A stretch of DNA of 64,000 nucleotides, taken from the NCBI RefSeq assembly GCF_014695915.1, contig NZ_JACJPF010000034.1, positions 1-64,000 on the forward strand. The letters run 5' to 3'. The position numbers and the translations under genes were made by a program. The notes beneath the pieces are model-generated. The model made no database searches and was not told the DNA's origin. It worked only from the letters and a program-made list of their open reading frames with translations. Positions 350 to 11,963 of this stretch are shown here, one piece after another (position 1 is the first letter of the stretch; the number at the start of each line of letters is the position of its first letter). The DNA comes from Trichocoleus sp. FACHB-40. Its GTDB lineage: Bacteria; Cyanobacteriota; Cyanobacteriia; Cyanobacteriales; FACHB-T130.

Positions 350-3300
350 ATGGAACTAATCAAAAGGACTACGCTGATCTATCAAGCCGGGAGTTCCGAT
401 AAAGTCTACGAAGTCGATCTCTGTCAAACTGGTGAAAACCGTTATTTAGTCAATTTCCGCTATGGAAGGCGGGGCGCAACTCTGAAGGAAGGTACAAAGA
501 CGGTTCAGGCTTTGCCATTAGCCCCAGCGCAGCGAGTGTTCGATAAGCTGGTTGACTCCCAAATTCAGAAGGGCTATCGGGATGTCACCGCTGGGACGGT
601 TAGCGAGACAGTCGCACCAGTTACGGTTGAAGGGGAGACTGTAGCTGTCAGTAGCGATCGCAGACACCAAGCTATCTTAAACCGTTTGGCGAACCGGGAC
701 AACCGAAAATGGCCTCTGGAAAGGGCAATTTGGCGGGCTGGAGAACTTAAAATCGGGGAAGCCACACCGTTGTTAATTCAACTGATTAGCACTGGCGAAC
801 CTTTGAGAGACTATTGTATAGCTTGGGCGTTGGGTTGGTGTGGGGATGAGAATGCGATCGCGTCCCTGAATCGCCTTTATCATCGTTCTAATCCGGATTT
901 TATTCGCCGCATTGCTTGGGAAGCCCTATTTAAGTTATCAAACGAACAGACACAAGGGCAGATGCGTTCTGAAAAGATAAAAGAATTGCCCTCAGAATTG
1001 CGCGATTTAGCCCGAAATGGAACAGCAGAAGCATTTGCAACTGCACTTCGCGATTATTTAAACAGCGGCGACTATAGGCATTTTGCCGCCCTCGATATTA
1101 TTTATCAAATCGATAACGAACACGTGCGTCCAGCACTACTGGATATTTTATGCGAAGCACCTTTTAAACCTAACTACTTCCAGCGAATTCGCCATATTTT
1201 CAAACTTGCTGAATATCGCCATGATGCAGAAGTTTTCGGCATCCTTGCTTATGCCTTTGAGAAAGAACCGGAAACATTTAATAATAAGCGAACGGATTGG
1301 CGCTGGGACTCCGTGAGGCGCAAATATTATTGTACCGGGCAACGTCGTTACGTTGAAGAACTCAAGAGTCCGCAGTCAAATAAAGCTTACAGCGAACAAA
1401 CTCGCGAATATCTGCGGCGGAGAGTGTGGCGCACTCTCAAAACTTTGGGTGAAGAAGGCGACTCTAATTATGTCAATCTAGCTGTTAGCATTCTCCTACA
1501 ATATTCCGATGCTGACGCACAGGAAATCAAACAGTCAAGCTTCACGAGATGGAACCAACAACGCCGCGCTACTGAACGTTTTACTAGATACTGGGATTCT
1601 TTTGCTGGCTATGTAACTTTTAATCATATTCTCTACGAAAACAGTGCCCGCTATGCCTCCCATCATAAAGCGTGGCGTTGTCGGGAGGGTTACAAACCAG
1701 GAGATCCAGAACCGCAAGTAAGAGAAGAAGCATTTCCCGAACTTTGGCAACAAAACCCAGCAGGACTTGTAGAGTTACTAATAGAAAGTGATTGCCGTCC
1801 GGTGCATCATTTTGCAGTTAAGGCGTTGCGCGTCTGCAAAGAATTTTGCGATCGCCTTGACATAGACACATTAATCAAATTTCTGAATAAACCCTACGAA
1901 ATAACCGCCGAATTCGGCTTTTTACTCGCACGCGATCGCTACAACCCCGCCCAACCCAACAGCGAATTAGTTTTGGCTCTTGCTAATTGTGCATTCCCAG
2001 AGGCACGTACACAAGCCTATCGTTGGATCGAACAGCAACGAGAATTCTTTTTTGAATCCAGTGACTTTATCGCGGCTTTAGTGACCAGTCAACAAGCTGA
2101 TACCCGTGCTTTTGCGCGAAGGTTACTAAGTTCATCAATTTTAACCGATACCACCGCCAGGGTACTCATCGGAAGAATTATTGCTGCTGTGTTGGCACTA
2201 GAACCTACGCAAACAGATAGTTCAAGAGAAATTAGTGAAACTTTGTTGCTCTGTTTTGCACCGCAACTGCGTAATTTGGGGTTTGGTGTAATCCTTGATT
2301 TACTTAATCACCCGATGCCGGAAATTCAGGAATTAGGCGCAAGAATTCTATTAAATCATGATATTCGTGCTGTTGATCTACCGCCAGATTTAATTGAATT
2401 ACTTCTTGCCTCTCCTTATGAGTCGGTGCGGGGTATTGGGGTGAGGATTTTTGGACAACTACCTGATGAGAGATTGTTAAGCGATCGCATTCTCATCGTC
2501 GCAATGGCAATTAATGCTGTCGCTGATATTCGTAACGCAATTCGTCCGGTGATTCGACGTTTGGCAACCAATCAACTCAATTTTAGTGCCGAGTTAGCGG
2601 ATGACTTGATTGATGTCTTAATTACGCCAGAAAGGCACGAAGGTGTTCACAAATATTTATCGCGTTTGTTGCGAGAAGATATCCCCGGATGGATGTCTAA
2701 CATCAGCAAAGAACGTGCGATGCAGCTACTTCGTGCTAAATCTTCAGCCGCCCAGGAATTGGGTGGTTTGGTATTGCAAGAAAATAGCGATCGCTTTCTC
2801 CCCGAATTCGAGACAAGCGAGATTGTCAAGCTAGCAAATCACGAAATTTTATCAGTGCGTAAAGCCGCAAGAGAGATGTTTTTAAAAATCTTAAGCCGCA
2901 TCCGCAACAACTCCCAAGAAATGTTATCAGCAGTGCGACTGCTAGAGTCAAAATGGGATGATTCGCGAGAATTTGCATCTAGAATTTTTAGCACAGATTT
3001 CACCAATGAAGATTGGACACCAGAAGTAATGGTTAGCATCTGTGACAGCATTCGCGAAGATGTTCGTTCCTTCGGGCGCGATTTAGTAACTTGCAACTTC
3101 AAAGAAACCGATGGGCAAGAATACTTACTCAAATTCAGCGAACATCCCTCAACAGATATGCAGACCTTTGCTACTAACTATCTAGAAAACCATGCTGTAA
3201 ATAATTCCCAACGTTTGCGAGAACTAACGCCATACTTTATCAGCGTTTTGTCCGGTGTCAATCGCGGAAGAGTTGCCAAACAAAGCATATTTGCCTTTCT

Positions 3301-3487
3301 AGATACCGAAGCCCAAAAAAGCGAGGAAGCTGCACAAATTGTGGCTGAAATTCTCACCCGACAATCTGTAACGATGGCAATTGGCGACAAAGCTACAGCA
3401 ATTCAGATAATGCTGAAAATTCAAAAAGCTTATCCTCAGATATCGTTACCGATTCAGGTAAAACCTATTTTCCAAGTCAGAAACTAA
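350..3487 (+). CDS. WGR domain plus HEAT/ARM-repeat protein, retron-associated
   Basis: A 1045-residue soluble protein. Residues 1-80 form a WGR domain (YGR core at 38-40), a fold that binds DNA ends or nucleic acid in PARP-type proteins. From about residue 100 to the C terminus the sequence is an alpha-helical HEAT/armadillo solenoid; the repeat around GWCGDENAIASL is typical. I see no catalytic motif. It is followed 162 bases later by the SWIM protein, the retron RNA and the reverse transcriptase. This ARM, WH-SWIM, RT order is what I recall as the type XIII retron arrangement, so this is probably a sensor, scaffold or effector of an anti-phage system. That role is inferred from the neighbours. 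A near-LexA site precedes the gene. Confidence 0.85.
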   Translation: MELIKRTTLIYQAGSSDKVYEVDLCQTGENRYLVNFRYGRRGATLKEGTKTVQALPLAPAQRVFDKLVDSQIQKGYRDVTAGTVSETVAPVTVEGETVAVSSDRRHQAILNRLANRDNRKWPLERAIWRAGELKIGEATPLLIQLISTGEPLRDYCIAWALGWCGDENAIASLNRLYHRSNPDFIRRIAWEALFKLSNEQTQGQMRSEKIKELPSELRDLARNGTAEAFATALRDYLNSGDYRHFAALDIIYQIDNEHVRPALLDILCEAPFKPNYFQRIRHIFKLAEYRHDAEVFGILAYAFEKEPETFNNKRTDWRWDSVRRKYYCTGQRRYVEELKSPQSNKAYSEQTREYLRRRVWRTLKTLGEEGDSNYVNLAVSILLQYSDADAQEIKQSSFTRWNQQRRATERFTRYWDSFAGYVTFNHILYENSARYASHHKAWRCREGYKPGDPEPQVREEAFPELWQQNPAGLVELLIESDCRPVHHFAVKALRVCKEFCDRLDIDTLIKFLNKPYEITAEFGFLLARDRYNPAQPNSELVLALANCAFPEARTQAYRWIEQQREFFFESSDFIAALVTSQQADTRAFARRLLSSSILTDTTARVLIGRIIAAVLALEPTQTDSSREISETLLLCFAPQLRNLGFGVILDLLNHPMPEIQELGARILLNHDIRAVDLPPDLIELLLASPYESVRGIGVRIFGQLPDERLLSDRILIVAMAINAVADIRNAIRPVIRRLATNQLNFSAELADDLIDVLITPERHEGVHKYLSRLLREDIPGWMSNISKERAMQLLRAKSSAAQELGGLVLQENSDRFLPEFETSEIVKLANHEILSVRKAAREMFLKILSRIRNNSQEMLSAVRLLESKWDDSREFASRIFSTDFTNEDWTPEVMVSICDSIREDVRSFGRDLVTCNFKETDGQEYLLKFSEHPSTDMQTFATNYLENHAVNNSQRLRELTPYFISVLSGVNRGRVAKQSIFAFLDTEAQKSEEAAQIVAEILTRQSVTMAIGDKATAIQIMLKIQKAYPQISLPIQVKPIFQVRN

Positions 3488-3649: not shown

Positions 3650-5290
3650 ATGGAATTTAACTACGCCTACAACGGGAACACATCTGTTAATGAAAGCGGT
3701 GCAAACACCCGGATGTCCTTTTCTCCCGATACTAAACGCGAACCGACTTACTTTATCGGAGAATTGCGTCATAATGTCGCCTTTCGGGAAGCGATTAGCG
3801 CCTTACACGATGTTGTCGTCTCCGATATGCGGTTCAAACCAAAAGATAAAACGGCATATAAAGAATGGGCAGCAAAACAACAGGATCTAGACTGGCAAAT
3901 CATCGCCGCACAACGCCAAGAAGTTGCGAATCAAATCAAGCCGTTGCAGGAAGAACTCAATCAGTTAAACCAACATAGTTACCAGCGGCGGGAATCTTTT
4001 TACAAAGCACAACGCCGCTATTTTGATTACCTTTATCAAAAAGACCGTGATGCTTGGTTTGTTCTCGACCCAGTGATTACTGTTCATCCCGATGAAGTAT
4101 TTTTTGAATGTTTCAGTCAGGATGAATCCAGTTATGGTCGTCTCGGTGCCAGCTACGAGGTTTTTAAAAATATCAACGAGTTTGCCTGCGGTACGACTAA
4201 TATTGATTACTCAGCGGCACTTTACGACGAGTTTCAAAAAATCCGCAGTTACAAAAATACCAGATTTGAAATAGACCCCTCTGGTTTTGAAGTTCAAACT
4301 ACGTACGAAGAAACTTTTAAAGAAGTCAAAATCGATTTACCCGACAGTTGGGTAAGAGGATTTTTGCAAGTTAGTTCGGCGATGTCTTTACCAGCAACGC
4401 GAGTTGATTTGCATCCGATGGATATTTACAATATGTGCTTTGTGCTGCGTCGCCACAAGGAAAAACAAGGGCCTCGCAGTATGCGCTACCATCTTAAACC
4501 TGGGGAACCCGTGCGGGTGACATTCGATCCGTGGGGAATTGAAATCGTTTGTGCGCGCTCGCTCTACACTGGATTGCAATCACAAGAAATCCGCGTTTGG
4601 GGACGCCGCCGCCTCCACATCCTCGAACGTCTCATCCCCGTTGCCAAAAAGTTTACCGTTCACCTACTCGGTACGGGTATGCCTTCCTTCTACGTCGCTG
4701 ACTTAGGCGATATGTCTTTTACCCTCGGTTTATCGGGATGGACGGCAAACGACTGGGCGCAATCTGGTAACTTTGACTTGATGGCACCCCGCGCCGACAT
4801 TGACAAATGGACGCAGCAACAAATTTTCGAGGCGCTGAAGAAGAATTGGGTAGAAAGTCCCGACTCGCTTGCGGAACGCCTTGGTTTAAACCGTGCCGTA
4901 GTTCTAGGTACTTTAAGTGCTTATACGCAAGCCGGACGTGCGATTTATGACTTAAACAAGCAAGTTTATCGGGTGCGGGAACTGACACGAGAACCTTTGC
5001 CGATGGAACGCCTGCGCTTTGCCAATGAGCGAGAAGAGAAAGCTACCCGTTTCTTGGTTTACAATGCTGTGCAGGTGGCTACTGTTACCAGCGATCCCAC
5101 GAAAGCATTTACTCTGCAAGGTAATGTTTCAGACAAGGGTAAAACCTTGAATCCTTCATTGACAGTTGACGCAGACGAGCGTATAATATCCGCAGAATGT
5201 ACTTGCAACTGGCATCAACAGAATAAACTGTACAAAGGCCCTTGCGAACACATTCTGGCGTTGCGAATGCAACACGCCCGTCAGTATTGA
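3650..5290 (+). CDS. Winged-helix plus SWIM zinc-finger protein, retron-associated
   Basis: A 546-residue protein ending in a clear SWIM zinc finger: C517-x-C519, twelve residues, C532-x-H534. SWIM fingers bind DNA or proteins. Just before it, around residues 390-450, is a winged-helix-like segment (SLAERLGLNRAVVLGTLSAY). The N-terminal part is charged with a likely coiled coil at about 75-115; the middle resembles no enzyme I know. The stop codon lies only two bases before the first arm of the retron RNA, so this gene and the RNA are probably one transcript. It matches the WHSWIM component that I recall for type XIII retrons. Its biochemical role is not known to me. Confidence 0.85.
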   Translation: MEFNYAYNGNTSVNESGANTRMSFSPDTKREPTYFIGELRHNVAFREAISALHDVVVSDMRFKPKDKTAYKEWAAKQQDLDWQIIAAQRQEVANQIKPLQEELNQLNQHSYQRRESFYKAQRRYFDYLYQKDRDAWFVLDPVITVHPDEVFFECFSQDESSYGRLGASYEVFKNINEFACGTTNIDYSAALYDEFQKIRSYKNTRFEIDPSGFEVQTTYEETFKEVKIDLPDSWVRGFLQVSSAMSLPATRVDLHPMDIYNMCFVLRRHKEKQGPRSMRYHLKPGEPVRVTFDPWGIEIVCARSLYTGLQSQEIRVWGRRRLHILERLIPVAKKFTVHLLGTGMPSFYVADLGDMSFTLGLSGWTANDWAQSGNFDLMAPRADIDKWTQQQIFEALKKNWVESPDSLAERLGLNRAVVLGTLSAYTQAGRAIYDLNKQVYRVRELTREPLPMERLRFANEREEKATRFLVYNAVQVATVTSDPTKAFTLQGNVSDKGKTLNPSLTVDADERIISAECTCNWHQQNKLYKGPCEHILALRMQHARQY

Positions 5291-5292
5291 CG

Positions 5293-5538
5293 AATCACGC
5301 GCACCTAATCAGTTGGTAAACAGCCTTGCAATCCGGACGATGGATCGTCGTCCTTGCGTTTAGCCTAGCCATGCACCACTAGCCTGCTCGTAACTGTGCG
5401 GTCATTCGGTACTACCGGAAAATCCGGTTTGACTTCCATGAAGTGAATTGATTCCGGTAGTACCGAGACCGCTTGAGTTGAGCAATCTAGTCCTGAGATG
5501 TTTACGAAGGGGCAACCAACTGATAATGGCGCGTGATT
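5293..5538 (+). ncRNA. Predicted retron msr-msd RNA
   Basis: This RNA has the hallmarks of a retron template. The ends pair as a1/a2 in two perfect 10-bp blocks: aatcacgcgc (5293-5302) with gcgcgtgatt (5529-5538), and atcagttggt (5308-5317) with accaactgat (5515-5524), separated by a small internal loop. An AGC at 5322-5324, just inside a1, offers the priming guanosine (G5323). An msr hairpin follows (ggacga 5335-5340 with tcgtcc 5348-5353, extended by gcaa/ttgc). The msd is a long hairpin: gcggtc (5398-5403) with gaccgc (5467-5472), and cggtactaccgga (5407-5419) with tccggtagtaccg (5453-5465), with a smaller acttc/gaagt stem at its tip. All pairings are read from the sequence; reverse transcription is inferred. 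Confidence 0.85.
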
Positions 5539-5700
5539 TTATTATTTTTAGCCCCCAACGCCCCCACAAGCTGAAGTCTGGGGCTATACAAAAAAGTCCG
5601 CCTGCGCCGACTAGATAAATATTCTCTCGTTCCAAGTCAGATGCTGGGAATGCTTTTTCAGAAGCTCCAGCCTCCATTACTTCCAGGTTTCAGGGATTAT
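5539..5700 (+). repeat. Dispersed repeat between retron RNA and RT promoter
   Basis: This stretch contains gcccccaacgcccccacaag and agtccgcctgcgccgact, parts of the same repeat family (agcccgcgcaggtgggct type) seen at 20099-20155. It separates the msr-msd from the promoter of the reverse transcriptase. The open frame on the opposite strand here is not convincing as a gene. Confidence 0.45.
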
Positions 5701-5707
5701 TGCGCTG

Positions 5708-5735
5708 TTGACAATCAGTACATATGTACTATAAT
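5708..5735 (+). promoter_or_regulatory. Consensus sigma-70 promoter of the retron RT gene
   Basis: TTGACA (5708-5713) and TATAAT (5730-5735) are both perfect consensus, with a 16-base spacer. Transcription would begin near 5742, giving a leader of about 23 bases before the ATG at 5765. The spacer is almost wholly occupied by a palindromic operator. Confidence 0.8.
5717..5730 (+). promoter_or_regulatory. Perfect cyanobacterial LexA box in the RT promoter
   Basis: agtacatatgtact is a perfect 14-bp palindrome and fits the published cyanobacterial LexA consensus RGTAC-N3-DGTWCB at every position. It fills the space between the -35 and -10 boxes and shares its last base with the -10, so a bound repressor would block RNA polymerase. 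Control of the reverse transcriptase by the SOS response is therefore likely, though not proven by sequence alone. Confidence 0.7.
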
Positions 5736-5764: not shown

Positions 5765-7168
5765 ATGTCCGATCAGCCGCGTACCCGCCAGGAATTGTAC
5801 GATCGCATCCGACAAACGGGCAAAGAGGAATTTATCCTCGAAGAGATGATACGTTATGGGTTCTGGCCTGCACAAGGCGAGATACCGCAAGATCCAGCCG
5901 ATGACATTCGGCGGATGGGAGAGATCCGGCGAGAACTGGATGAACTGCGACAGCAGAGTTCGCGTCTTCACAACGAAAAGGAACTTCGCAAGCAGCTACT
6001 CAAGCAACGCCTCGCCGAGTCGCGGCGAAAGCGACAGGAGACAAAGGAACGGCGGGAACGGGAACGGCAAGAACGAGCGGAAGATTGGCGACAAAGAAAA
6101 GAGCGAGAAATCCTTTATCTGGGTGAAGATATCTCAGGTGGACTCAACTATACTGAGTGCGATGAGGAAAGGTTGCGAAGTTATGGATTACCTTTGTGCG
6201 GTACGCCTTACGAAATTGCCACTGCAATGGGAATTACTGTGGGACAATTGCGCTTTCTCGCTTTTTCCCGCAAGACTTCGACAATCTCTCACTATATCCG
6301 CTTCAAGATTCCTAAAAAAACGGGTGGAGAACGCCTGATTTCCGCACCAATGCCACGCTTGAAGCAGGCGCAGCATTGGATTTTGGGCAATATTTTGGAA
6401 AAGCTGGAACTGCACGATGCGGCGCATGGTTTTAGACGCGATCGCTCTATGGTCAGCAACGCTCAACCTCACGTAAAACGCGACGTAATTATCAATTTTG
6501 ACCTAAAAGATTTCTTTCCCTCAATTTCCTATAAGCGAGTTAAAGGACTTTTCCACTCATTCGGTTATTCGGAAGCTGCGGCAACAATTTTCGGGTTGTT
6601 GTGTACCCAACCGGATATCGAGGAGGTTGAATTAGACGGCAAAACTTATTATGTAGCCCTCACCGATCGACATTTACCCCAAGGTTCACCAGCTTCTCCA
6701 GCCATTACGAATCTAATGTGTCGCCGCTTAGATAAACGACTTACCAGTATGGCTGAACAATTGGGTTTTGTTTATACTCGCTACGCTGACGATTTAACTT
6801 TTTCTGCTTCTGGTGACAGTCTCCGAAATATCTGCAACATTCTCAAACGCACTCAGTCAATCGTGGATCATGAAGGATTTGCGATTAACGAACAGAAGAC
6901 TAGAATATTGCGGAAAAACCGGCAGCAGGAAGTTACTGGAGTTGTGGTGAATGATTATCCGAATATTTCTAAAAAAGAGCTAAAACGCTTCCGCGCTACT
7001 TTGTTCCAAATCGAGAAAGATGGCTTGGAAGGTAAGCAGTGGGGAAATTCTGATAATGTGATGTCTTCGATTCAGGGTTATGCCAATTTTGTCGCTATGG
7101 TTAATCCGCAAAAGGGTGTTGAGTTTCAGGAGCAAATTCGACGAATTCGGGATAAATACAGACGCTAA
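5765..7168 (+). CDS. Retron-type reverse transcriptase with N-terminal coiled-coil extension
   Basis: A 467-residue RNA-directed DNA polymerase. The catalytic box is YADD (340-343), with the first metal-binding aspartate at D246 (FDLKDFFPSI) and QGSPASP at 306-312. Two retron-specific signatures are present: NAxxH in the X region (N232, A233, H236) and VTG in the Y region (390-392). Before the RT fold lies an unusual ~130-residue extension that is strongly charged and coiled-coil-like at about 55-120. The ATG at 5765 was chosen over an upstream TTG because the TTG lies on the -10 box. The enzyme should copy the msd part of the upstream RNA. The locus looks like a type XIII retron; the function is probably anti-phage defence. 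Confidence 0.93.
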   Translation: MSDQPRTRQELYDRIRQTGKEEFILEEMIRYGFWPAQGEIPQDPADDIRRMGEIRRELDELRQQSSRLHNEKELRKQLLKQRLAESRRKRQETKERRERERQERAEDWRQRKEREILYLGEDISGGLNYTECDEERLRSYGLPLCGTPYEIATAMGITVGQLRFLAFSRKTSTISHYIRFKIPKKTGGERLISAPMPRLKQAQHWILGNILEKLELHDAAHGFRRDRSMVSNAQPHVKRDVIINFDLKDFFPSISYKRVKGLFHSFGYSEAAATIFGLLCTQPDIEEVELDGKTYYVALTDRHLPQGSPASPAITNLMCRRLDKRLTSMAEQLGFVYTRYADDLTFSASGDSLRNICNILKRTQSIVDHEGFAINEQKTRILRKNRQQEVTGVVVNDYPNISKKELKRFRATLFQIEKDGLEGKQWGNSDNVMSSIQGYANFVAMVNPQKGVEFQEQIRRIRDKYRR

Positions 7169-7395: not shown

Positions 7396-9234
7396 ATGAA
7401 AGCAACTTACTCCCTGAGTCAATCGCTTATTGCAGCCGCTACCCCGTCCACCGTAGACTTGATTGTTAATTTCCAGGCTGAAGAAGAAACGCGCAACAAA
7501 GTACCGCGTCTTCCGCTTAATTTGAGTGTAGTAATTGATAGATCGGGTTCGATGGCGGGAGCGCCACTTAAGAATGCTATTCAAGCTGCACAAAGACTTG
7601 TGGAATATTTGACCCCAGAGGATTTTCTTTCAGTTGTAATTTATGACGATACGCCGGAAACAATTCTTCCGCACCAACTGGTTCAGGATAAAGCTGCCAT
7701 TCGTTCGCTAATTGGTAAGGTGAAAGCTGGCGGGTGTACTAACTTGAGTGGCGGCTGGTTGATGGGATGCGACAATGTAAAATCTCAGCAGTCCACAGAA
7801 CGCATCAATCGCGTTTTATTATTAACAGATGGACAGGCGAATGTTGGCATTACTGATTCTCAAGTATTAATCAACACTGCAAGACAACAAGCCGAACAAG
7901 GAATCATTACTACAACTTTAGGGTTTGGAACTTATTTTAATGAAGATTTGCTCATCGGCATGGCAAATGCTGCCGGGGGAAACTTTTATTTCATCCAATC
8001 ACCTGACGATGCTACTGATGTATTCAGAATTGAACTAGAAAGCCTCACGTCTGTTGTCGCCCAAAATCTGACTGTGACGCTGCAACCAGAAGATTCTGTA
8101 CAAATTACCGGGATTCTCAACAATTACCGCTCCAATTCGATTGGCAACAACCTGGAAGTTTTCTGCGGCGATGTTTATGAGGTAGAAAATAAGCAGTTAG
8201 CCGTAGAATTGTCAATACCTCCGCAAACCAATATTGGAGTAACAAATATTGCCACCGTTGCTTATAAATATCAAGCGGTTGTCGATGGCAGCATCCAAGA
8301 ATTTACTGACGAAATCCCGATCAGTATAATGGTTGCTGATGCTGAATCAGCCAGTAACGTGCAGCCAGATGCAGCGGTTGTGGAGCAAGCAAGTAAGCTG
8401 AGGATTGGTAAGGTAAAAGATGAAGCGATCGCACTCGCTGACAAAGGAGATTATACCGCCGCATCCCAGAAACTTCGCAAGACAATCGAGGATCTCAAGC
8501 TGAAAGCATTGCATGAATCCTTTGAAGTTGCCGAAGAGATGGAACAACTGGATTATTATGCACAACGCCTGGAGAGCAGAAAGTTTGATAGTGTCAGTCG
8601 CAAGGAGATGCGAGATCAATCTTACCAAGCTCTTACACGCGATCGCGGCGATTTGAAATTGCGCGGACTTGCTGCGAGTGCCAACAGCTTACAAGCGGTT
8701 TCCAGCGTGGATGCGGGAGTTTTGGTAAAATGCGATCGCGTTAGTGGTAAGTTGCGGATTCACGTCATTTCTGACGGTTACAATCCTGATTTCAACGTGC
8801 AATTCCCCCGCAATATTCGGGAAGAAGGTGTCACCTACATCGTTGATGAAATCAATCTATCTGCTGACGGTAGCTTTTATCGCGTCTCCGGTAACATTCG
8901 CCGCTTAGTGCAACCCGGACAAGAACGCGCCGCATCATCTCAAAATGGTACATCTTCTTCCAGTCCGAAACGACAAAAGCTGAATGCACCAGCTTCTGCC
9001 GCCGATTTAGAAACAATTGATACTGTAGGTGATGGAGTTATCGTTCAGTGCGTGAAAGAAGGCAGTAAATTGAGAGCCAGAGTCGTGTCCGATGGGTACG
9101 ATCCTAACTACAACATCCGCTTTCCCCGCGACATTCGAGAAGAAAACGTTCTCTATGTAGTTGATGAAGTGGAAGAGGCGAAGAATGGCGGATCTTATGT
9201 TGCTTATGGAAAGATTCGCAGGTTAGTTCAGTAA
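7396..9234 (+). CDS. VWA-domain protein with duplicated C-terminal domain
   Basis: A 612-residue protein. Residues 40-230 form a von Willebrand factor A domain with an intact metal-ion-dependent adhesion site (DRSGS at 48-52, LLTDGQ further on). A central beta-rich and helical region follows. The C terminus carries two copies of a ~68-residue domain (439-506 and 545-612) joined by a Ser/Pro-rich linker. The copies share SDGY(N/D)P and FPR(N/D)IREE. The same domain occurs once at the end of the WGR-propeller protein at 10542-11963. There is no signal peptide, so it should be cytoplasmic. It lies 227 bases after the reverse transcriptase on the same strand and may be a retron accessory protein, but co-transcription is not shown. 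Confidence 0.85.
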   Translation: MKATYSLSQSLIAAATPSTVDLIVNFQAEEETRNKVPRLPLNLSVVIDRSGSMAGAPLKNAIQAAQRLVEYLTPEDFLSVVIYDDTPETILPHQLVQDKAAIRSLIGKVKAGGCTNLSGGWLMGCDNVKSQQSTERINRVLLLTDGQANVGITDSQVLINTARQQAEQGIITTTLGFGTYFNEDLLIGMANAAGGNFYFIQSPDDATDVFRIELESLTSVVAQNLTVTLQPEDSVQITGILNNYRSNSIGNNLEVFCGDVYEVENKQLAVELSIPPQTNIGVTNIATVAYKYQAVVDGSIQEFTDEIPISIMVADAESASNVQPDAAVVEQASKLRIGKVKDEAIALADKGDYTAASQKLRKTIEDLKLKALHESFEVAEEMEQLDYYAQRLESRKFDSVSRKEMRDQSYQALTRDRGDLKLRGLAASANSLQAVSSVDAGVLVKCDRVSGKLRIHVISDGYNPDFNVQFPRNIREEGVTYIVDEINLSADGSFYRVSGNIRRLVQPGQERAASSQNGTSSSSPKRQKLNAPASAADLETIDTVGDGVIVQCVKEGSKLRARVVSDGYDPNYNIRFPRDIREENVLYVVDEVEEAKNGGSYVAYGKIRRLVQ

Positions 9235-10541: not shown

Positions 10542-11963
10542 CTACACTAATTTCTTGATATCCCCAAAAGCACGATAAAATCCGCCACGAGAAGATGCGC
10601 GCACCTCTTCCACCAGATAACGCGCACCTTCGGAGCGAATCTCCTGGGGAAATTGTACTTTCCAATTGGGATTGTAACCAGGAGAAACAGCGCGAATTCT
10701 TAACTTCCCGCCTTCTTGGAAACATTCTACAATTACACCGTGAGTAGCATTTGATGTCGTGTCTAAAGTATTAGAAGGAATGGCTGCGGCAACGGCGGTA
10801 GGTGCTTTAATGTTAATAGCCTGGGGAACTGTACCCGCTTGCGCCGCTTTGATTGCAGTTTCACTAGCGTCGATGCAAGCAAGAGAACCATCGGTGGTGA
10901 CGATGTAGAGATGGTCATCTATAAACTGCATGGAGAAGGCAGAACCGCAGCCAGTGGCAAGTTTCCAAAGACGCTCTCCTTGCTGACTAAAACAATAAAT
11001 CGAGGAGCAATTGTCGCCTGCAAAGACATATTTACCTTCTTCAGCAGTGGCGCAAGAATAAACCGGCGCATCACATTGATATATTGTGCTAACTTCGCCT
11101 TTCTTCGTGAAGCAATAAACTTGATTCTCACTGGTACTAGCATATACAAATGCTTCTTCTTGCCAGCCAAACAGCACCCCGCCACGAGTCTTTTGATTCC
11201 AAATCTTCGTTCCATCTTCCCAGTCATACATGGTTACGCCGTTGCTGTGACCGTGATAGATACCAATCTCATCGCAGCGCACCATCCAGCCATACTCGCC
11301 ACTACTTTTTTTAGTCCATTGAGACTCATCTTCGTGATTGATAGTTGTAACATTTCCAGTATCATCAGAAACACCGAGAATTGCATCTTTAATATCAAGC
11401 CAGAAAATATTTACATCGGGGGCAATTTCATAAGCAACGCGGGGAATTTTTCCTGTCAAATCGTATACTTTGCCATCATCGCATCCCGCATAAAGCCAAC
11501 CTTCATCAGCGACAATACACTTCACGCCGTCAGGAAGCCGAAACTGATTTTGGACAATTCCCGTATGGCTGAGAGCAAAAATTTGACCCGCTTGATTGCC
11601 AACCCAACAGCGCGAGTTGTCAATAAAAATGCCGAAAGCAGGGGAAGAAGAGGCAAATTTCCAAACTACAGGTGCTTGGTTTGCAGTTGAGCGATCGCTC
11701 TTTATTTCCCGTCGAGTAATGGGACGTTTACTTCGCACTCCCATAACTGCTTGTTCGTAACCTTTCTTCAGTTTCTCGTTAATCTTTTTCGTCGCCTCAG
11801 CTTTGGCTTTTTCCGGGGTTGGATAGGTTTTTACCTGAGTTTGTCCTGAGTCGCCAATGCGACCATAGCGAATGGATACTTCCGTATCGTTGACAATTAC
11901 TTCATAAAATTTGTGAGAACTGGAATCTGATTCAGATAGCTCTAAATAGGTTTTATCTTCCAT
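10542..11963 (-). CDS. WGR-domain, beta-propeller protein sharing the VWA protein's C-terminal domain
   Basis: A 473-residue protein in three parts. Residues 1-75 form a WGR domain (YGR at 33-35; KKGYEQAV closing helix). Residues 100-370 are a repeated beta structure of the PQQ/WD-like propeller kind (blades such as YVFAGDNCSSIYCF and LYIVTTDGSLACID). Residues 407-473 are a single copy of the ~67-residue domain found twice in the VWA protein, with SPGYNP and FPQEIRSE. It is convergent to the VWA gene. The combination of WGR with this private domain suggests a partner of the retron locus, perhaps in sensing damaged DNA. That is inference from shared domains. Confidence 0.8.
   Translation of the reverse strand: MEDKTYLELSESDSSSHKFYEVIVNDTEVSIRYGRIGDSGQTQVKTYPTPEKAKAEATKKINEKLKKGYEQAVMGVRSKRPITRREIKSDRSTANQAPVVWKFASSSPAFGIFIDNSRCWVGNQAGQIFALSHTGIVQNQFRLPDGVKCIVADEGWLYAGCDDGKVYDLTGKIPRVAYEIAPDVNIFWLDIKDAILGVSDDTGNVTTINHEDESQWTKKSSGEYGWMVRCDEIGIYHGHSNGVTMYDWEDGTKIWNQKTRGGVLFGWQEEAFVYASTSENQVYCFTKKGEVSTIYQCDAPVYSCATAEEGKYVFAGDNCSSIYCFSQQGERLWKLATGCGSAFSMQFIDDHLYIVTTDGSLACIDASETAIKAAQAGTVPQAINIKAPTAVAAAIPSNTLDTTSNATHGVIVECFQEGGKLRIRAVSPGYNPNWKVQFPQEIRSEGARYLVEEVRASSRGGFYRAFGDIKKLV

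Follow-up and report, generated by a model that had tools for sequence, protein, structure and literature searches.

Retrons are usually pictured as always-on guardians in which msDNA keeps a toxin in check, and Mx162 of Myxococcus is the likely classical example of Type XIII. We know of no earlier sequence-level link between LexA and a retron. A review passage presents the retron as one polycistronic cassette under one promoter (PMC6868368). Two other defence systems have some link to DNA damage or the SOS response, as excerpts of the respective reports have it: SOS gene expression increases during immunity by DRT3, which is also based on a reverse transcriptase (RT), yet RecA is dispensable (PMC13174585), and mitomycin C activates AbpAB independently of both RecA and LexA (PMC10732053). 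The same excerpts describe no LexA operators in the promoters of either system, unlike the locus considered here, which carries LexA-like boxes. Among the titles and opening abstracts listed in searches of open-licence literature, we recognized no report of LexA control of a retron. The closest parallel on the regulatory side is the cyanobacterial LexA regulon (Li et al. 2010, PMC3091678), which shares with our locus the box sequence and its position in promoters, and which has lexA and ssb as targets; the main text of that paper contains none of the words retron, reverse transcriptase, phage, defense, and defence.

The window, by which we mean the whole 64-kb stretch of Trichocoleus DNA that was analysed, is part of a 6.38-Mb genome assembled in 126 contigs, and its first 7.2 kb contain a complete Type XIII retron as recognized by PADLOC, with all three protein families in order. 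The first gene (350 to 3487, forward strand) encodes a HEAT/WGR protein of 1045 residues (WGR_XIII, E = 0; HEAT-ARM_XIII, 3e-44; Pfam HEAT_2, WGR just below the cut-off). Close by follow the gene for a SWIM protein of 546 residues (3650 to 5290, forward; SWIM_XIII, 3.5e-247; Pfam SWIM just below the cut-off), a structured msr-msd-like ncRNA just after it, and the RT gene (5765 to 7168, forward), which starts with ATG and encodes 467 residues with a Pfam RVT_1 match. Assignment of the RT to RT_XIII (E = 1.2e-200) is clear, at 665 bits versus 321 bits for the next best family. The locus differs from the Type XIII pattern in that the RT has its own predicted promoter with a LexA-like box, and the ncRNA forms a separate unit with a putative promoter within the SWIM coding sequence; many cyanobacteria have the RT elsewhere altogether. 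The retron is apparently not the one-promoter polycistronic cassette of the review excerpt (PMC6868368). Downstream of the RT lies a VWA-domain gene (7396 to 9234), upstream of which a scan with the matrix described below finds no site scoring at least 9; a similar ORF also follows the RT in one relative (L042), and, by eye, the C-terminal stretch of a WGR/beta-propeller gene (10542 to 11963) resembles that of the VWA gene.

The predicted RT promoter combines a consensus -35 element, TTGACA (5708 to 5713, forward), and a consensus -10 element, TATAAT (5730 to 5735, forward), separated by a 16-bp spacer (5714 to 5729), and the LexA-like box AGTACATATGTACT (5717 to 5730) is set between and partly over them. 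The first-pass annotation had this palindrome exactly filling the gap, which is right about its place inside a consensus promoter but slightly overstated: the box covers 13 of the 16 spacer bases, and its final T is common to the box and the -10 element. The accompanying claim, that the palindrome fits the cyanobacterial LexA consensus, is borne out, since with a matrix built from the 48 cyanobacterial LexA sites of PMC3091678 it reaches the highest attainable score, 21.2 of 21.2. Exact TTGACA-N15..19-TATAAT arrangements occur twice in the window (shuffle mean 0.11), once here and once inside the SWIM gene ahead of the ncRNA.

How much weight the match can bear depends on the pattern used. As the only RGTACNNNDGTWCB site in the window, AGTACATATGTACT gives 2 strand-hits, being counted on both strands because it is a palindrome, against a shuffle mean of 0.51, and 12 of 100 shuffles reached 2. 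Genome-wide, this loose pattern gives 43 strand-hits versus 39 for its reversed control, barely above it, and is thus weak evidence taken alone. The strict palindrome AGTACNNNNGTACT is found at 4 places in the 6.38-Mb genome versus 1 for the reversed control, all four agreeing with the AGTACWNWTGTACT consensus printed in PMC3091678; with at most one mismatch, AGTACWNWTGTACT occurs at 26 genomic places (38 strand-hits versus 7 for the control). By matrix score, the RT box and a box before the HEAT/WGR gene are the two top sites of the window, the next one scoring 13.9. Judged from its sequence, the identification of the RT-promoter palindrome as a LexA-type operator is supported.

The HEAT/WGR box, AGTACATTTATACT (310 to 323; score 15.8), came to light after the RT box and is absent from the first-pass annotation. 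Only 26 bp separate it from the HEAT/WGR ATG, and it adjoins TATTAT (302 to 307, forward), which we read as the likely -10 element of a HEAT/WGR-SWIM promoter, so that the box would sit at about the transcription start. Given the 26 genomic places, the 349 bp upstream of this gene should by chance contain approximately 0.0014 boxes with no more than one mismatch. The box is identical in the window and in four relatives (L267, L271, L272, and L274), where its start varies from -40 to -103 relative to the ATG and the flanks partly differ. With a box at this place, LexA would control the effectors as well as the RT.

The genome encodes a single LexA (E = 5e-59), and AGTACGAATGTTCT (score 15.4) lies 36 bp upstream of the lexA start. 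Its protein, read by eye, has an Ala-Gly dyad, the serine of a DSM motif, and the lysine of a TLKR motif, which we take to be the residues of a self-cleaving repressor. A box in the promoter of lexA itself does not accompany every box-bearing retron: the genome G396 has both retron boxes, yet its two lexA genes lack a matching site (0.1 and -3.1). In the scoring of lexA upstream regions, which covers the genomes other than G360, the sites are also weak in G435 and G446 (3.9 in each) and reach 9.0 in G507. Other candidate targets in the Trichocoleus genome are an SSB gene carrying AGTACATTTGTACT 11 bp upstream of the ATG, a second SSB-domain gene with GGTACATTTGTTCT 42 bp before its start, and recA, with a weaker site (13.6) 460 bp upstream. 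High-scoring sites also fall inside genes, one instance being a ribonucleotide reductase-like ORF, so a match does not by itself make an operator.

The ncRNA (about 5292 to 5539, forward; these limits are the ends of the outer helix) has the paired a1/a2 ends and the long msd stem of a retron msr-msd. It folds with z = -8.2 relative to shuffles, and compensatory changes affect 31 of 65 consensus pairs in a 16-locus alignment; Rfam gives no useful match between 5200 and 5800. Approximately 105 bp before it, and embedded in the SWIM coding sequence, lies TTGACA-N17-TATAAT (5159 to 5187, forward), and codon usage argues that this is a promoter. The codon at its -10 element encodes Ile in 34 of 40 SWIM genes and is the rare ATA in 25 of these 34, versus 133 of 846 at the other Ile codons of those genes (P = 1e-13, kinship ignored); by hand count, exact TATAAT is present in 22 of the 40, the others having TATGAT or less. 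The embedded -10 is absent from every non-cyanobacterial SWIM row compared. These patterns support a hidden promoter carried within the SWIM protein code, by which the ncRNA would have a promoter separate from that of the RT and need not wait for LexA. Activity of this promoter would presumably be constitutive; it is also possible that ncRNA arises by read-through from the putatively LexA-controlled HEAT promoter. Two relatives carry two copies of the ncRNA motif pair in one locus, at 5726 and 6976 in L267 and at 4563 and 5780 in L278.

RT_XIII matches of any kind are present in 139 of 386 genomes of the phylum and in 278 of 388 genomes of the order. The best full-length of these matches contributed 60 stretches besides L035 to L044, and the best 80 of 547 relatives supplied further RT_XIII loci. 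Removal of 30 near-copies (same first 400 RT residues) from 115 loci left 85, including five non-cyanobacterial ones (L088, L099, L100, L102, and L103), and 82 of the 85 have 400 bp of upstream sequence, the short ones being L040, L087, and L299. The set does not take in L045 to L063, among which L045, L046, L051, and L054, though more distant, align with almost the full RT model; no locus of L045 to L063 exceeds 11 of 14 consensus positions. Viral relatives (80 kept), which share no more than 39% identity across a portion of the RT, were not used, and on plasmids one relative covers at least 80% of the query, from Methylobacterium at 50.5% identity.

A site scoring at least 12 lies within 400 bp before the RT unit in 13 of the 82 loci, compared with 0.48 expected (P = 3e-15, ignoring kinship). 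A caveat is that the expectation derives from no more than 13 such sites elsewhere in the loci, over 824,717 positions. These 13 include an operon site in L322, and two groups of them (L292; L280, L281, and L283) may be operators of other genes. In L322 (genome G197), which makes a fourteenth locus, the box stands ahead of an operon of two further genes and the RT; the two extra genes between box and RT (L322 / L378) apparently share one operon with it, and one of them looks PIN-like by eye. On an RT tree of 83 rows, the 14 box loci require 7 changes, at least 5 of which are forced by well-supported branches. The palindrome is therefore not absent upstream of homologous RTs, one of the outcomes that the first-pass annotation had named as refuting its proposal, but most homologues (69 of 82 loci, many from genomes with lexA) do lack it. 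Of 15 RT loci from other or more distant types, scanned as controls over 620 bp around the match start (intragenic in at least L047 to L050), none reaches 12 and the best scores 8.0; the best site in the 300 bp scanned at each of 36 non-cyanobacterial RT_XIII loci (L108 to L143) scores 6.7.

The box starts 45 to 65 bp before the ATG in 9 of the 13 loci and at -297 to -357 in the other 4. These far boxes (about -300 in L302, L303, and L315; -357 in L104) lie directly ahead of the ncRNA, which the RT follows, and enter the count as sites in the promoter that would serve an ncRNA-RT unit; their interpretation as ncRNA stems was rejected, as the folded sequences place the boxes upstream of the ncRNA. 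Relatives that carry the box have conserved half-sites and, for the most part, a conserved -10 element (exact TATAAT beside the box in 6 of the 9 loci with a proximal box), but the -35 element is not conserved. Across the six members of the clade that includes the window, the commonest base has an average share of 98% at half-site positions and of 93% in the ATAAT that follows, compared with 71% at the four central positions and 59% in the flanks. Another strong LexA-like site, AGAACAAATGTACT (18.0), is located at about 4089 in L292, between the ncRNA and the RT and 2.9 kb before the latter.

The two retron boxes tend to occur together. By hand tally, a HEAT site of at least 11 is present in 8 of 11 cases with a box at the RT unit and in 1 of 21 without (P = 1e-4), a count in which only 129 bp (G428) and 210 bp (G440) are visible before the HEAT gene of two genomes. 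The association extends to retrons in which the two genes lie apart: the HEAT site scores 14.5 in G547 and 11.4 in G396, where HEAT and RT are on different contigs of draft assemblies, which does not prove them unlinked, and 12.0 in G455, where they are 1.2 Mb apart on one contig. In G507, the HEAT site scores 11.3 but the RT site a weak 7.9, and the RT-unit box occurs without a HEAT box in G308, G197, and L104. LexA-like boxes before the RT unit thus recur in several cyanobacterial lineages, some of which have the RT and the effectors at separate places in the genome.

Presence of the box also follows presence of lexA, which was found in 41 of the 68 RT-bearing genomes searched. All 13 genomes with a box before the RT unit have lexA, compared with 28 of the remaining 55 (P = 6e-4, kinship not taken into account); the box-bearing side of this comparison comprises loci other than L104, and three of the 55 (G172, G411, and G428) show less than 400 bp before the RT. 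Of the 27 genomes without lexA, 25 represent all 25 tested members of families f4, f7, and f50, and none of them has a box; the remaining two are isolated cases in f11, a family with lexA in other genomes. This amounts to a natural experiment, in which lineages without lexA keep the retron and have no box.

Retron architecture varies among these genomes in other ways. In G308 (L321, L371), HEAT, SWIM, and the ncRNA lie at 1.10 Mb and the RT, the only strong RT_XIII among the matches listed, at 1.74 Mb of the same contig; in G455 (L308, L374), HEAT is at 3.5 Mb and the RT at 2.3 Mb. An RT so far from its RNA would have to act in trans. Elsewhere, RT_XIII directly follows an RNase III gene, mostly by about 40 bp (108 in L036), as seen in L035, L036, L043, L067, L277, L279, L284, and L286, and the genomes of such RTs (G195, G039, G008, G615, G569, G593, and G532) lack lexA; in the lexA-bearing G440 and G490, an RNase III gene lies 117 to 203 bp before the RT.

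We consider it very improbable that a regulator other than LexA recognizes the palindrome, or that it arose by chance with the TACTATAAT promoter context favouring it. Because box and -10 element overlap, part of the right half could be promoter sequence, but the left half-site is conserved too, and the HEAT box lies beside, not within, its likely -10. Most homologues are without the box and the loose consensus is significant in neither the window nor the genome; against this stand the joint presence of box and lexA and the control RT loci, all below 12. Chance as the origin of the RT box was rejected because, unconvincing as the loose consensus is, the evidence from the genome, the homologues, and the second box is convincing. 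Among other regulators, NtcA recognizes GTA-N8-TAC, a spacing to which the palindrome, with N6, is unsuited.

A less remote alternative, though still an unlikely one, accepts that LexA binds both operators but casts it as a general stress or metabolic regulator, so that the retron would follow redox, pH, or light, and not DNA damage or phage. A recent paper (PMC13416735) reports that LexA of Anabaena PCC 7120 is cleaved independently of RecA and in a pH-dependent manner, and cites this LexA as regulating stress responses globally. The LexA of Synechocystis 6803 is said not to act as an SOS repressor, and cyanobacterial LexA, more widely a stress regulator, may answer to pH or oxidative stress instead of DNA damage. 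In the same paper, however, UVC, gamma rays, and H2O2 each elicit a response from a reporter driven by the recA promoter in Chroococcidiopsis. In Trichocoleus, the boxes before lexA and the two SSB-domain genes, together with the weaker site upstream of recA, likewise speak against a role remote from DNA damage. Given the Anabaena findings, we infer, and do not assert, that DNA damage switches the retron on.

Our preferred reading, to which we assign a probability of approximately 75%, is that the palindrome is a LexA operator, that LexA represses both the RT gene and the HEAT/WGR-SWIM genes, that the RNA is made constitutively, and that msDNA follows the loss of LexA. Both boxes, a lexA gene with a box of its own, the separate ncRNA promoter, the conservation, and the co-occurrence can all be read from the DNA, and the boxes, conservation, co-occurrence, and separate promoter together make LexA control of the RT and effectors, apart from the RNA, well supported. 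The first-pass annotation had proposed such control for the RT alone; its core is upheld by an operator-like sequence, a box before some homologues, and a promoter proper to the RNA, but it missed the box before HEAT/WGR and with it the effectors.

We posit that LexA would bind the RT-promoter palindrome, cover the -10 element, and shut the RT gene off, and that, bound at the second operator over the start region, it would likewise shut off the HEAT/WGR-SWIM genes, while the LexA-free promoter inside SWIM would keep supplying the ncRNA throughout. A resting cell would then contain the template RNA, little RT, and little effector. Upon inactivation of LexA, whether through DNA damage, with phages that attack DNA perhaps among its causes, or through another LexA-cleaving stress, the RT and the effectors would appear together, and msDNA would be made once they do. 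In this scheme, LexA binding and repression, the constitutive RNA, the trigger, and the role in defence are all presumed. Its most specific form, in which RNA is stockpiled from the constitutive SWIM-internal promoter, LexA holds back the RT and effectors, and msDNA synthesis is itself triggered by damage, seems to us evenly poised. If the RT and effectors are indeed repressed by LexA and the RNA alone is constitutive, msDNA would be a product of stress, and the arrangement suggests a defence that is held half-assembled until the cell is in trouble.
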